64,000 nt of DNA from Acinetobacter cumulans (GTDB lineage Bacteria; Pseudomonadota; Gammaproteobacteria; Pseudomonadales; Moraxellaceae), in contig NZ_CP035936.1 of the NCBI RefSeq assembly GCF_003024525.3, forward strand, positions 1 through 64,000, given 5' to 3'. Position 1 is the first letter of the stretch. Every line of letters starts with the position of its first letter. The notes under the pieces were generated by a model. The model did no database searches. It saw nothing but the letters and a program-made list of their open reading frames with translations, and had not been told where the DNA came from. The position numbers were made by a program, and so were the translations under genes. Below, in pieces: positions 59,217 to 64,000 of the stretch.

Positions 59217-62111
59217 ATGACTGATTCAGCGCAAAATATTGCTACGACCTACGATCCAACCGAGATCGAAAAAAAATGGTACCAAACTTGGGAAGAGCGC
59301 GGTTACTTCAAACCGTCTGAAAAAGGTGAATCATTCTGTATCATGATTCCACCGCCAAACGTCACTGGTAGCTTGCACATGGGTCATGGTTTTAACAATG
59401 CCATCATGGATGCTCTGACTCGTTATAACCGTATGTCTGGCAAAAATACGCTTTGGCAACCAGGTACGGACCATGCGGGTATTGCAACGCAAATGGTTGT
59501 TGAACGTCAGTTGGGTGCTGAAGGTATTAGCCGTCATGACCTTGGCCGTGAAAAGTTCATTGAAAAAGTGTGGGAATGGAAAGAACAATCTGGCGGTAAC
59601 ATTACCCGTCAAATTCGTCGCTTAGGTTCTTCTGTAGACTGGTCTCGTGAACGCTTCACGATGGACGAAGGTTTATCAAATGCGGTGAAAGAAGTATTTG
59701 TTAAGCTACATGAAGAAGGCTTAATTTACCGCGGTAAACGCCTTGTAAACTGGGACCCTAAACTACAAACTGCCCTTTCTGACTTAGAAGTAGAGTCTGA
59801 TAAAGAAGAAGCAGGTTCATTATGGCACTTCAAATATTTCTTTGAAGATAAGTCACTTCGTACCCACGACGGTAAAGATCACATCGTTGTTGCGACGACT
59901 CGTCCTGAAACATTGCTTGGCGATACAGCCGTTGCAGTTGCACTGGATGATGAACGCTATGCAGCACTTGTTGGCAAAAACATTATCTTGCCAATTACAG
60001 GCCGTGCTGTTCCTATCGTTAAAGACGAATATGTAGACAAAGAATTTGGTACAGGCTGTGTGAAAATCACCCCTGCGCACGACTTCAATGACTATGAAGT
60101 GGGCAAACGCTGTGAACTTCCAATCATCAACATCTTCAACAAAAATGCGGAAGTTCTTGCTGAGTTTGAATACATCGCGAAAGCGGGCGAGCAAATTTCT
60201 AAAACCATTCCTGCACCTGCGGACTACATTGGTTTAGAACGTTTTGCTGCACGTAAACAATTGGTTGCTCAAGCAGAAGCTGAAGGCTGGTTAGACCAAA
60301 TTCAACCGTACACATTGAAGCCACCTCGCGGTGACCGTTCAGGCGTGATCGTTGAACCACTACTGACTGACCAATGGTACGTAAAAATTGCGCCGCTTGC
60401 TGAGCCTGCAATTAAAGCAGTGAAAGATGGCGAGATTAAATTCGTTCCTGAGCAATACAGCAACATGTACATGGCGTGGATGAACAACATCCAAGATTGG
60501 TGTATTTCGCGTCAATTGTGGTGGGGTCACCGTATCCCTGCTTGGTACGATGCTGAAGGTAACGTATTTGTAGGTCGTGATGAAGCTGAAGTTCGTGCGA
60601 AAAACGGCATTGCACCTGAAGTTGAATTGAAACAAGACGAAGACGTGCTTGATACATGGTTCTCTTCTGGTCTTTGGACATTCTCAACTTTAGGTTGGAC
60701 TGGCGATGCGGCGAAAGATAAAGAAAACTATTTCTTAAATACTTTCCACCCGACTGATGTGCTTGTGACTGGTTTTGACATCATCTTCTTCTGGGTTGCC
60801 CGCATGATCATGATGACCATGCACTTCATGAAAAATGAAGATGGCACACCGCAAGTTCCGTTCAAAACTGTGTATGTACATGGTTTAGTTCGTGATGGCG
60901 AAGGTCAGAAAATGTCTAAATCTAAGGGCAACGTGCTTGACCCATTAGATTTGATTGACGGTGTTGATCTTGAAACTTTAGTACAAAAACGTACGACTGG
61001 TTTGATGAACCCGAAACAAGCAGCGAAGATTGAAAAATCAACACGTAAAGAATTCCCTGAAGGCATTCAATCTTACGGTACAGATGCGGTTCGTTTCACT
61101 TTCTGTGCGCTTGCGAACACAGGCCGTGACATTAAGTTCGATATGAAGCGTGTTGAAGGCTACCGTAACTTTGCCAACAAAATCTGGAACGCTACGCGTT
61201 TCGTGATGATGAACTGTGAAGAGCAAGTGATTGGTCAAGAAGTTCGTCAAGACCTTTGGGAATTGCCTGAACAGTGGATTGTTAGCCGTTTACAAAAAGC
61301 GGAACAAGCGGTGCAAACTGCATTTGCAACGTACCGTTTAGACTTGGCTGCGCAAGCGATTTACGAGTTCATTTGGAATGAATACTGTGACTGGTATGTA
61401 GAGCTGACTAAGCCTGTTCTAAATGATGAAAACGTATCGGTTGAGCGTAAAGCTGAAGTACGTCGTGTTCTACTTGCTGTGATGGAAGCGTCTTTACGTT
61501 TGGCTCATCCGTTGATGCCTTACCTAACAGAAGAAATTTGGCAAACGCTTGCGCCGAAACTGAACATTTCTGGCGAAACGATTATGCTTGCACAGTACCC
61601 TGTTGCTGAGCAAGCATTGATTAACGAACAAGCTGAAGCGGATATGCAATGGCTGCAAGGTTTGATTGGTGCGGTACGTAACATCCGTGGTGAGATGGGC
61701 TTAGGTAATGCTCGCTTGTTGCCTGTTCTTCTGCAAAACACGACGGATGCTGAAAAAGCACAGATCACGCGTATCGAAGCGTTATTCACTGCGTTGGCGA
61801 AAGTTGAAAGCATTACTTTCCTTGCTGATGGTGAACAACCGCCATTGTCTTCTTCATCTGTAGTGGGTCATGTATCTGTATTCGTTCCAATGAAGGGTTT
61901 AATTGACCCTAAAGCGGAATTGGGTCGTTTGCAAAAAGACTTAGACAAGGTTCAAAAACAGCATGACCAAATTGCGACTAAGTTAGGCAATGAAGGTTTT
62001 GTAGCGAAAGCACCTGCTGCTGTGGTTGAAGGCGAGAAAGTGAAACTTGCTGAATTTGCTGATCAGTTAGCGAAGATTAAAGCAAATATGGAGCAAATTG
62101 CAGCGCTTTAA
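59217..62111 (+). CDS. valS: Valine--tRNA ligase
   Basis: ValS charges tRNA-Val and edits threonine. The 964-aa class I synthetase has the HIGH motif in [15 protein letters not shown], the CP1 editing domain ([15 protein letters not shown]), the KMSKS motif in [14 protein letters not shown], the anticodon-binding helical domain and the C-terminal coiled-coil arm ([40 protein letters not shown]). Length matches (about 950). It ends at a terminator beyond which the AT-rich retron begins. Confidence 0.98.
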
Positions 62112-62127
62112 TGCTGTAGTTTGATTC

Positions 62128-62158
62128 AAAAAAATCCCCTCTAATGAGGGGATTTTTT
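62128..62158. terminator. Shared terminator of valS and the retron
   Basis: The stem AATCCCCTC/GAGGGGATT with a 4-nt loop has A and T runs on both sides. It abuts the stop codon of the reverse transcriptase, so it ends both convergent units. Confidence 0.85.
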
Positions 62159-63173
62159 ATTGAATAAGATTACTTAGTATTTTTTTATATTCAGTAAACT
62201 CTAAGTTATTTGGCTCAACATTTAAAACAAAATTTACACGCCCTATAAGAGAAGCTAAATAATCAGGGTTTTTAATTTTTTTCTTATTTACATGAGAAAT
62301 AAAACCATATTTTTCTATATAGTAAATCTCTTGCTTCAATTTTCTTTTATATTGTTTAGGTACGGAGAGGATATTACCTTTAATTTGAATTCCTGTAATG
62401 ATATTTTGGGATGCATTTACCTTAAGTCTAGTTTTCTTTGTATTTATTTTAAAACCATAATTCTTAATGAGAAAACTACAAAAATTCCTAAAACTTAATG
62501 AAATATAATTACCTGAAAATACAAGATCATCAGCATAGCGGCTATATTTTAAATTATTTTTTAGAGCATATTTATTTAATTTCCTATCTAAATTAACTAA
62601 TAAAATATTAGATAGAGCCGGACTACAAGATGAACCTTGCACTAAACAATCTTTAAAACAACAAAGCCTGGATAAGTAAAAAGAAATTTTTTTTGAATAC
62701 CCTAAACTATAAAAAAAATTAACTATCCAACCAATTGGAATTGATGAAAAAAAATCTTTAATATCTAAATGTAAAAAAACACTGGAATTAATGTGCTCTC
62801 TAGCATTGGTAATAATAGATTTTCCATCGAGAAACCCATGTGCATATGCATTTTTATTTTTTACTTTTAAAATGTTTATATATATCCATTGTTGAACCTT
62901 TTTTAAGGACTTAAATGGAGCATTAATTTTTCTGGTGCCACCTTTTTTCTTAGGTATTTCAAATTCACGATAAAATTTTTCGGGAGAAAAAATCATTGAG
63001 TATAATGTTTTTACATTTATACCAACTAATTTTGATAAATGCTCTATCTCAAAAATTACAGGGACTTTATTTTTTAATAGCTTTTCGACAACCAAGCCAT
63101 ATTCATTTATATATGCTTCTTGTAAACCTACATCATTAAAATAGGCTACCCATTCTTTTGCTTTATTAGACAT
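62157..63173 (-). CDS. Retron-type reverse transcriptase (RNA-directed DNA polymerase)
   Basis: This enzyme reverse-transcribes part of its cognate RNA into msDNA. With the ATG at 63173 the product has 338 aa. Motifs seen: AHGF (111-114), NAREH (123-127, the retron NAxxH), LDIKDFFSSI (136-145), QGSSCSPALSN (179-189), the catalytic YADD (213-216) and a VTG-like IITG (258-261). No maturase or endonuclease domain follows, which fits retrons rather than group II introns. The frame is open up to 63236, but the extra 21 codons run through the msd hairpin and a2 repeat, so I reject them. The gene is strongly AT-rich and starts seven bases after the msr-msd RNA. Confidence 0.92.
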   Translation of the reverse strand: MSNKAKEWVAYFNDVGLQEAYINEYGLVVEKLLKNKVPVIFEIEHLSKLVGINVKTLYSMIFSPEKFYREFEIPKKKGGTRKINAPFKSLKKVQQWIYINILKVKNKNAYAHGFLDGKSIITNAREHINSSVFLHLDIKDFFSSIPIGWIVNFFYSLGYSKKISFYLSRLCCFKDCLVQGSSCSPALSNILLVNLDRKLNKYALKNNLKYSRYADDLVFSGNYISLSFRNFCSFLIKNYGFKINTKKTRLKVNASQNIITGIQIKGNILSVPKQYKRKLKQEIYYIEKYGFISHVNKKKIKNPDYLASLIGRVNFVLNVEPNNLEFTEYKKILSNLIQ

Positions 63174-63180
63174 AAAAAAC

Positions 63181-63373
63181 CTGTAAGGATTACTCAAATT
63201 ACTTGCTTTGTAAGAAACAAATTTATTGGGAAACATCCAAATAAATTTGTTTCTTACTTCGAATCAGCAAATGCTGTTCGACCCTCTCATTAAATCTTTG
63301 ATTTAATGAGAGTAAAGGTCATAGACCCGTTAACACTAGAAGCGACTACACTTCAACATACTAATCCTTACAG
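63181..63373 (-). ncRNA. Candidate retron msr-msd RNA
   Basis: Read on the minus strand, the 193-nt segment begins with CTGTAAGGATTA (a1, 63373-63362) and ends with its perfect complement TAATCCTTACAG (a2, 63192-63181). Just after a1 comes G at 63361, a possible branching guanosine. The msr part folds into GAAGTG/CGCTTC (63354-63339), a 13-bp perfect stem CTCTCATTAAATC/GATTTAATGAGAG with AAA loop (63312-63284), and CGAACAGC/GCTGATTCG with one bulge (about 63280-63260). The msd is an 18-bp perfect stem (63257-63240 with 63227-63210). This order and position, immediately upstream of the RT gene, is what retrons show. Exact ends and branch point are inferred. Confidence 0.88.
63210..63257 (-). 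repeat. msd hairpin, 18-bp perfect stem
   Basis: On the minus strand GTAAGAAACAAATTTATT (63257-63240) pairs perfectly with 63227-63210 around a 12-nt loop, TGGATGTTTCCC. The loop itself can add a GGA/TCC pairing around TGTT. This is the segment expected to become single-stranded msDNA. Confidence 0.88.
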
Positions 63374-63382
63374 GTGCTAATG

Positions 63383-63410
63383 AGTATATCTGCTTTCTTT
63401 TTTAAAGCAA
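63383..63410 (-). promoter_or_regulatory. Candidate promoter of the retron RNA
   Basis: On the minus strand TTGCTT (63410-63405), a 16-bp spacer and TATACT (63388-63383) would start transcription near 63376, within three bases of the a1 repeat. The fit between the predicted start and the RNA's 5' end supports it; the elements alone are moderate matches. It overlaps the last codons of the upstream gene. Confidence 0.5.
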
Positions 63411-63722
63411 ACTTCTTTTAGGGATATACAGTTCATTAACCTCAAGTTCATTTTTTGAAAGAAATTTTTTTGGAATAAATGTTTCTTTAACTTGACGATT
63501 ATTAACATTTAATAAAACTTTTTGTTCACCAGTCATTGTGAGTTTTACAAAAACCCCATCAATAATTAATAATTTTTCATCGCGCAGCTTAAAAATTAGT
63601 TTAAAAAAATCACTCGGAGGAACTGATAACCTCTGATTTAAAGTATAAGCTTGTAAAGTTTTATTTGAAGATGAAAAAAGTATTTCAAGCAGCTTGTTTG
63701 ATATAATTTCACTTTTTCTCAT
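63402..63722 (-). CDS. Small winged-helix-like protein of the retron operon
   Basis: This 106-aa protein has a predicted winged-helix fold: ISNKLLEILFSSSNKTLQAYTLNQRLSVPPSDFFKLIFKLRDEKLLIIDGVFVKLTMTGEQKVLL looks like helix-turn-helix plus wing (residues 6-70). A basic tail follows (VKETFIPKKFLS...LYIPKRSLL). Its ATG overlaps the upstream stop by one base (TAATG), so translation is coupled to the preceding gene. Small winged-helix partners accompany several retron types and may help bind the RNA-DNA or control the effector. The family is not recognised directly; the role is inferred from position. Confidence 0.62.
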   Translation of the reverse strand: MRKSEIISNKLLEILFSSSNKTLQAYTLNQRLSVPPSDFFKLIFKLRDEKLLIIDGVFVKLTMTGEQKVLLNVNNRQVKETFIPKKFLSKNELEVNELYIPKRSLL

Positions 63723-64000
63723 TAAGCATCATCCATTGCTCTATGTAATAAAACATCTCGTACTCTATTATCTGAATAGTATTTCCACCAAAACACAGGA
63801 AAAACATTATTGGGTGTGTTTTTACTCTCTATAGAAAGTGCAACTTGTGATTCGCCATAGCCAAGACTAGGGAATTCTCTTTCATTATATGAGCTAGATA
63901 ATTTTCTCTCTATTAATCTCATCAAATCTTTTTTTTGCTCTACTTCACTTAAATCATATATTTTCTCTAAAAGCTTATCATCGACTATATAATAAGATGA
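63722..64000 (-). CDS. Candidate retron effector, C-terminal 92 residues (cut by window edge)
   Basis: The frame is open to the last base of the window without a convincing start, so this is the 3' part of a longer gene. The visible tail has SNxTPNN-like and tryptophan-rich segments (GYGESQVALSIESKNTPNNVFPVFWWKYYSDNRVRD). This recalls the C-terminus of phosphoribosyltransferase-like proteins of conflict systems (PRTase-CE type), which occur as retron effectors. That likeness is from memory over a short stretch and is uncertain. Coupled translation with the winged-helix gene and the same AT-rich composition place it in the retron operon. A shorter TTG start at 63925 is possible but unlikely. 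Confidence 0.5.
   Translation of the reverse strand, partial: SSYYIVDDKLLEKIYDLSEVEQKKDLMRLIERKLSSSYNEREFPSLGYGESQVALSIESKNTPNNVFPVFWWKYYSDNRVRDVLLHRAMDDA

Follow-up and report, generated by a model that had tools for sequence, protein, structure and literature searches.

Retrons are bacterial phage-defence elements that produce a small, branched DNA linked to RNA (msDNA). In type III-A retrons, the non-coding RNA (ncRNA) lies between a winged-helix (WH) gene and the reverse transcriptase (RT) gene. The III-A class is that of Mestre et al. (2020), adopted by PADLOC, which contains msr-msd models, and by PMC12548924. Retron-Bpu1 (Bacillus pumilus) and Retron-Ppe1 (Pseudomonas peli) are assigned to type III-A and came from isolates chosen by an RT-DNA band; Bpu1 yields RT-DNA in E. 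coli but did not protect against any phage of the panel, and transformation of E. coli with Ppe1 failed (PMC12548924). Retron-Sda1 (Sphingobacterium) likewise has a III-A1-like RT and a III-A1 ncRNA (PMC12548924), but HipA and DUF3037 replace the phosphoribosyltransferase (PRTase) there, whereas the locus described here keeps PRTase and WH. This locus lies at the end of a 64,000-nt stretch of Acinetobacter DNA (the window) and shares with Ppe1 and Bpu1 a PRTase, a WH and an RT gene encoded in one direction; its RNA sequence, with the branch site TAGT, appears to be its own. We consider it very likely that the element between WH and RT is the msr-msd of a complete type III-A retron on the Acinetobacter chromosome, with an effector step that we infer. 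The class is already described, and the RNA appears to be new to it: among the matches listed in a literature search that covered few subscription papers there was no publication on this RNA or on an Acinetobacter III-A retron, and Rfam 15 gave no match over the element at the gathering cut-off, the families listed at E values up to 10 being far below their cut-offs. An earlier note on this DNA had not recognised the sequence from characterised retrons, which agrees with the Rfam result, although the class itself is known.

The gene order is PRTase-WH-ncRNA-RT on one strand (Table 1), and the PRTase, WH and RT proteins all match PADLOC III-A models, in what is putatively one operon. A longer ORF in the frame of the RT opens at 63236, inside the msd, and the relatives align from the start at 63173. 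Retron RTs are marked by YADD, by NAXXH in region X and by VTG in region Y, and the change of V to I in VTG is also known from Vc81 (PMC6868368). The window RT carries NAxxH (as NAREH), YADD and ITG, and NAxxH, YADD and [VI]TG are kept in eight aligned RTs. At the sites that read FFPSI and QG[AS][APS]TSP in seven aligned relatives, its sequence is FFSSI and QGSSCSP, two substitutions at otherwise kept RT motif sites that would suit a decayed retron with an inactive RT and a relic RNA. We think such decay very improbable, since the three ORFs are open, the catalytic YADD and the retron motifs are intact, and no mismatch interrupts the 14 pairs of a1/a2 or the 18 of the msd. Against the NCBIfam model retron_St85_RT (NF038233), the RT scored 218.6 and did not reach the curated cut-off of 235. 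The best sequence match to the RT family among solved structures is Retron-Eco1/Ec86 (II-A; 3.5e-64), and no solved structure labelled III-A was found for the RT family or the PRTase family. Retron-Eco1/Ec86 has the same overall a1/a2, msr and msd plan, and its effector is a nucleoside deoxyribosyltransferase; in effector and RNA it differs from this locus.

Relatives of the RT are sparse. At E 1e-30, matches occurred in 4 of 175 genomes of the genus, and at E 1e-55 in 2 of 369 of the class and 3 of 390 of the order, this genome being counted each time; the phylum draw added no new RT relative among 398 genomes at E 1e-55, and 200 genomes of one family returned only an already-known one. A Bacteroidales MAG, two viral-collection contigs and plasmids supplied additional relatives. 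Scanning the viral contigs with the single RT sequence found no relative; with an RT alignment as query, the best 80 of 430 loci were considered, from which L022-L026 were inspected and L022 and L023, whose RTs are 47% identical to the window RT, were used for the RNA. The RNA set thus comprised ten loci, this one included, with RTs 43-62% identical to the window RT. Two Blautia loci (L007, L008) with a related RT were excluded from it because no PRTase or WH ORF was seen by eye in the upstream stretch inspected. Two plasmids have other gene contents. A Tritonibacter mobilis plasmid (L021:661-2288) carries, by eye, HipA-like and DUF3037-like ORFs before a III-A-like RT and resembles Sda1; on a Priestia megaterium plasmid (L017:1023-5987), two hypothetical proteins stand where PRTase and WH would be expected beside a retron RT, and the unit converges on genes whose annotations are retron HNH endonuclease and AAA ATPase and which may be another effector pair.

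The PRTase gene lies upstream of the RT on the same strand, overlaps the WH ORF by one base and crosses the window end. The whole gene (L005:14356-15228, 290 aa) matches PRTase_III-A of PADLOC (3.2e-89) and PRTase-CE of Pfam (2.4e-22). PRTases of all ten RNA-bearing loci match PDLC02932 (E 8.5e-83 to 6.6e-99). The same holds for PDLC02975 and the nine scanned WH ORFs (E 4.8e-22 to 2.1e-29); at the WH place, L023 has a 139-codon open frame in which no ORF of 80 aa starts with ATG. The predicted WH fold resembles MarR-type winged helices. For the PRTase, a structure model of the relative in L022, not of the window protein (mean pLDDT 65.8, core blocks above 80), matched mainly orotate, uracil and adenine phosphoribosyltransferases in Foldseek (E down to 4.7e-5), at a TM-score (query) of only about 0.33. 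The motif [VIF]D[NE]FxGxGxT, present in 8/8 PRTases examined, is PRPP-loop-like, and we take it to be the PRPP loop. The literature surveyed, as far as it was accessible, names no PRTase substrate for III-A.

Table 1. Coordinates of the retron features in the window.
Feature	Position	Strand	Length, basis or remark
Whole msr-msd RNA, a1 to a2	63179..63375	-	197 nt; fold, covariation, R1 match
a1 arm, 14 nt	63362..63375	-	perfect repeat; covariation in 10 loci
a2 arm, 14 nt, contains AGGT	63179..63192	-	perfect repeat; covariation
Predicted priming (branch) G	63361	-	in TAGT, directly 3' of a1
msr hairpin 1, GAAGTG..CGCTTC	63339..63354	-	fold; alignment
msr hairpin 2	63316..63328	-	fold; 5 pairs
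Hairpin 3	63284..63312	-	13 bp, 3-nt loop
Hairpin 4	63259..63281	-	fold
msd hairpin (hairpin 5)	63210..63257	-	18 perfect pairs, mismatch, 3 more pairs, 4-nt loop
Single-stranded tail AAAGCAAGTAATTTGAG	63193..63209	-	precedes a2; partly conserved
TATACT, -10-like hexamer	63383..63388	-	7 nt to a1; possible ncRNA promoter
Retron RT, 338 aa	62157..63173	-	RVT_1 1.7e-21; RT_III-A 1e-134
Winged-helix (WH) protein, 106 aa	63402..63722	-	WH_III-A 1.4e-24
PRTase gene, C-terminal part	63722..64000	-	crosses window end

The earlier note had read the segment before the RT gene as a candidate msr-msd with a perfect 12-bp terminal repeat, three msr-type stems and an 18-bp msd stem, and had judged so many nested repeats in so short a span unlikely by chance. 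The terminal repeat is indeed perfect and proved to be longer, 14 bp, enclosing msr and msd and falling within the general retron range of about 8-30 complementary bases. The msd stem was found as described (63210-63227 with 63240-63257), reaching 21 of 22 pairs past one mismatch, as were the three msr-type hairpins, including the 13-bp one with a 3-nt loop, to which hairpin 4 is added. The element also lies directly before the RT gene, with a 5-nt gap between a2 and the RT ATG (63173-63171). As for chance, the folding energy of the 231-nt strand is -87.4 kcal/mol compared with -44.0 (sd 4.6) for shuffles (z = -9.4), with none of 200 shuffles equally stable; perfect distant helices reach 14 bp and perfect hairpins 18 bp in the 197-nt element, as against 9 and 10 at most in 200 dinucleotide shuffles. 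The complementary strand of the msd hairpin also folds as DNA (z -8.8). A priming G is present at the a1 end in the context TAGT, for which TAGC is the commonest form elsewhere. Upstream on the minus strand (63410-63383), TTGCTT is followed after 16 nt by TATACT and after 7 nt by a1, and the related locus L010 has TTGCTT, 16 nt, TATAAT and 7 nt at the equivalent place. Judged by these motifs, TTGCTT/TATACT is possibly the ncRNA's own promoter, with a poor -35; the TATACT hexamer was not among the promoters listed by a promoter scan.

The pairing was then followed across the ten RT-bearing loci. When the arms were located solely by TAG[TC]A for a1 and [AG][AG]GTA for a2, pairing was seen in 128 of the 140 cells of the 14 columns, a value reached in 1 of 20,000 permutations in which a2 was exchanged among loci. 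The arms keep 9/14 pairs in L006 and L016 and 13/14 in L022 and L023. In alignment A5, two-sided changes occur in 11 of the 14 a1/a2 columns, two are invariant, and 91.4% of cells pair. Because the MAFFT alignment is unreliable over hairpins 2-5, the ten-locus count was limited to a1/a2 and hairpin 1. Four of five whole-structure measures in the ten loci lay above all 500 shuffles, and the number of further pair types did not (293/500). Given no structure, RNAalifold predicted from the ten loci a1/a2, hairpin 1, two hairpin 2 pairs and one lone pair, with two-sided changes in 13 of the 23 predicted pairs. TAG is invariant in the ten-locus alignment, followed by T in 8/10 loci and by C in 2/10, TAG[TC]A having served as the search anchor for a1; in the tail before a2, G-T and [AG]GTA columns are conserved.

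The whole fold was counted in the four Acinetobacter loci, with the structure taken from one row of their alignment and with L011, which is misaligned at hairpins 4 and 5, counted as it was. Over 68 pairs, 89.0% of cells are paired compared with 79.5% in shuffles, and two-sided changes occur in 21 pairs compared with 7.0 (0 of 500 shuffles as high); when the fold was slid along the alignment, at most five pairs had two-sided changes. Hairpin 2 has no two-sided change among its five pairs in this count. Single-sequence folds place hairpin 1 in 9/10 loci (absent in L023), the long last hairpin in 10/10, and a hairpin of 7-17 bp at the hairpin 3 place in 10/10, short or interrupted in L006, L012, L014 and L023. 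The 13-bp hairpin, which the earlier note had thought unusual for an msr stem, is therefore ordinary here; its position is kept in the relatives and its sequence changed. Hairpins 3, 4 and 5 vary in sequence, and hairpin 1 is nearly fixed, the most conserved of all hairpins in the alignment. The search for compensatory change in RT-bearing homologues that the earlier note had called for thus favoured the msr-msd reading, and the covariation demonstrates, at the level of sequence comparison, that the fold is under selection.

A covariance model of the four Acinetobacter loci, this locus among them, was designated R1. On the window it matches the element used in building it, and in this genome it finds a single place, which is present on two contigs. 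R1 was searched in 40 of the 91 non-building loci from other genomes, with L051-L101 left out. Full-length matches were obtained in L015, L022, L014, L006, L016 and L023 (E 1.2e-15 to 4.3e-10), all of them immediately upstream of the RT; the other 34 of the 40 gave no significant match, the best of them at E 0.23. R1 links this RNA to nine other III-A loci, three of them model-building loci. These results bear on the reading that the element is no retron RNA at all and consists of transposon, integron or terminator repeats that stand before an RT gene by chance. Many inverted repeats in a short span would fit it; yet no other copy exists in the genome except the same stretch on the second contig, the element precedes related RTs in six loci outside the model with compensatory change, and a scan listed no terminator-like site within it. 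We hold this reading to be extremely improbable, and the single genomic place together with the lack of a listed terminator-like site led us to reject a terminator or mobile-element repeat.

R1 was silent in the PRTase-WH-RT loci L019, L020 and L025 and in the PRTase-RT locus L026. Since it misses PRTase-RT loci of the class, the RNA family spans one branch and not the whole class. The PRTases of L019, L025 and L026 have PDLC02931 as best PADLOC III-A model, that of L020 fits PDLC02932 beside an RT only 35% identical, and a WH-sized ORF in L026 matched no PADLOC model. With RNAs that R1 misses, L019, L025 and L026 would make up another RNA branch within type III-A, one that could be modelled separately. 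The locus offers an intact III-A system whose RNA is mapped; with the four diverged versions at one genus site and a working covariance model, it gives a set suited to testing which RNA parts the RT and the effector read, and it adds an RT for ssDNA production.

In retrons, the G that follows a1 provides the 2'-OH at which the RT begins to copy the msd (PMC6868368). If this holds here, a1/a2 would keep the transcript closed, and the RT would recognise the msr hairpins, link G63361 2'-5' to the first base of the DNA and then copy the msd, beginning near A63194 and running through its stem. Set beside the Eco1 RNA, this RNA would have A63194 as first template base, and the predicted cDNA start lies opposite it. 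The msDNA would be roughly 65-70 nt with an 18-bp hairpin, if synthesis stops just past the msd stem. We give some, clearly minority, weight to a III-A retron with a longer reverse transcript, in which hairpins 5, 4 and 3 are copied from 63194 to about 63313 (about 120 nt) and the msr consists of hairpins 1 and 2. The variability of hairpins 3, 4 and 5 beside the nearly fixed hairpin 1, and the compact, msr-stem-like form of hairpins 1 and 2, point in that direction; on the other hand, the long stem nearest a2 would by itself give a typical msDNA, and in PMC12548924 RT-DNA was assumed to cover the longest stem-loop where data were absent.

In the general retron model, RT-msDNA restrains the effector and phage releases it (PMC12548924), and we infer such holding and release for the PRTase class. 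RT-msDNA together with WH would keep the PRTase inactive until the msDNA is altered or bound by a phage product; the freed PRTase would then spend PRPP or damage a nucleotide pool, stopping the infected cell. The a2 arm could have a second role. Its AGGT is the best ribosome-binding-site-like match ahead of the RT start; in 5/10 loci a2 contains AGGT at a distance of 5-9 nt from the RT start (in L011 with the last base just beyond the 14 counted pairs), weaker four-base matches lie in a2 in 3/10, and 2/10 have none. These motifs are weak, and it is rather unlikely that a2 also serves as the RT ribosome-binding site. If it did, the folded, RT-ready ncRNA would block translation of its own RT and fix the RT-to-RNA ratio, and the overlap would possibly tie effector release to RT shortage.

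Each of the four close retrons found in the genus occupies the interval from valS to a DnaJ-like gene (site intervals: window 62111-64000 and L005:12928-16793; other loci L134, L135, L136 and L104-L133). The RT adjoins valS in this genome and in G174; between RT and valS, G066 has one extra ORF and G020 several, two of them transposase-like by eye. G174 and G020 are 96% identical in the valS C-terminus and 91% in the DnaJ-like protein, and their retron proteins are 42% (PRTase), 30% (WH) and 54% (RT) identical. Flanks so nearly equal around different retrons make an exchange of the cargo more probable than its inheritance along with them.

Thirty-one genomes were drawn, and 30 valS loci were read downstream for up to 1.5 kb. 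Retrons stood in two (this genome and G066), the DnaJ-like gene was reached in four, other ORFs of at least 100 aa occurred in 22, and two had none, one of these ending after 38 nt. Seven of ten chosen valS-site proteins match PADLOC families at E 1e-5: three PtuA-like, two PifA-like, one Old/GajA-like and one PDC-S15, PADLOC's authors noting that such ATPase models overlap. Among the three PADLOC-negative proteins, Pfam marks one as caspase-like and one as containing DUF4062. The interval between valS and the DnaJ-like gene, which in other species carries different and often defence-like genes, would thus appear to be a variable defence hotspot of Acinetobacter; nothing on such a hotspot stood among the matches listed in a literature search (20 of 1,277). 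Beside valS in G036, a 407-aa protein (L130:2060-3280, minus strand) with no Pfam match at E 0.001 and no PADLOC match at 1e-5 is a candidate uncharacterised cargo of the site. The queried kilobase occurs twice in the assembly of this genome at 100% identity (C1:962949-963948 and C2:63001-64000, on contigs of 3.4 Mb and 177 kb), which looks like assembly redundancy (assembly contamination 6.35). Over about 80% of its length, the window segment 50185-62111 matches A. baumannii records at about 78% identity.
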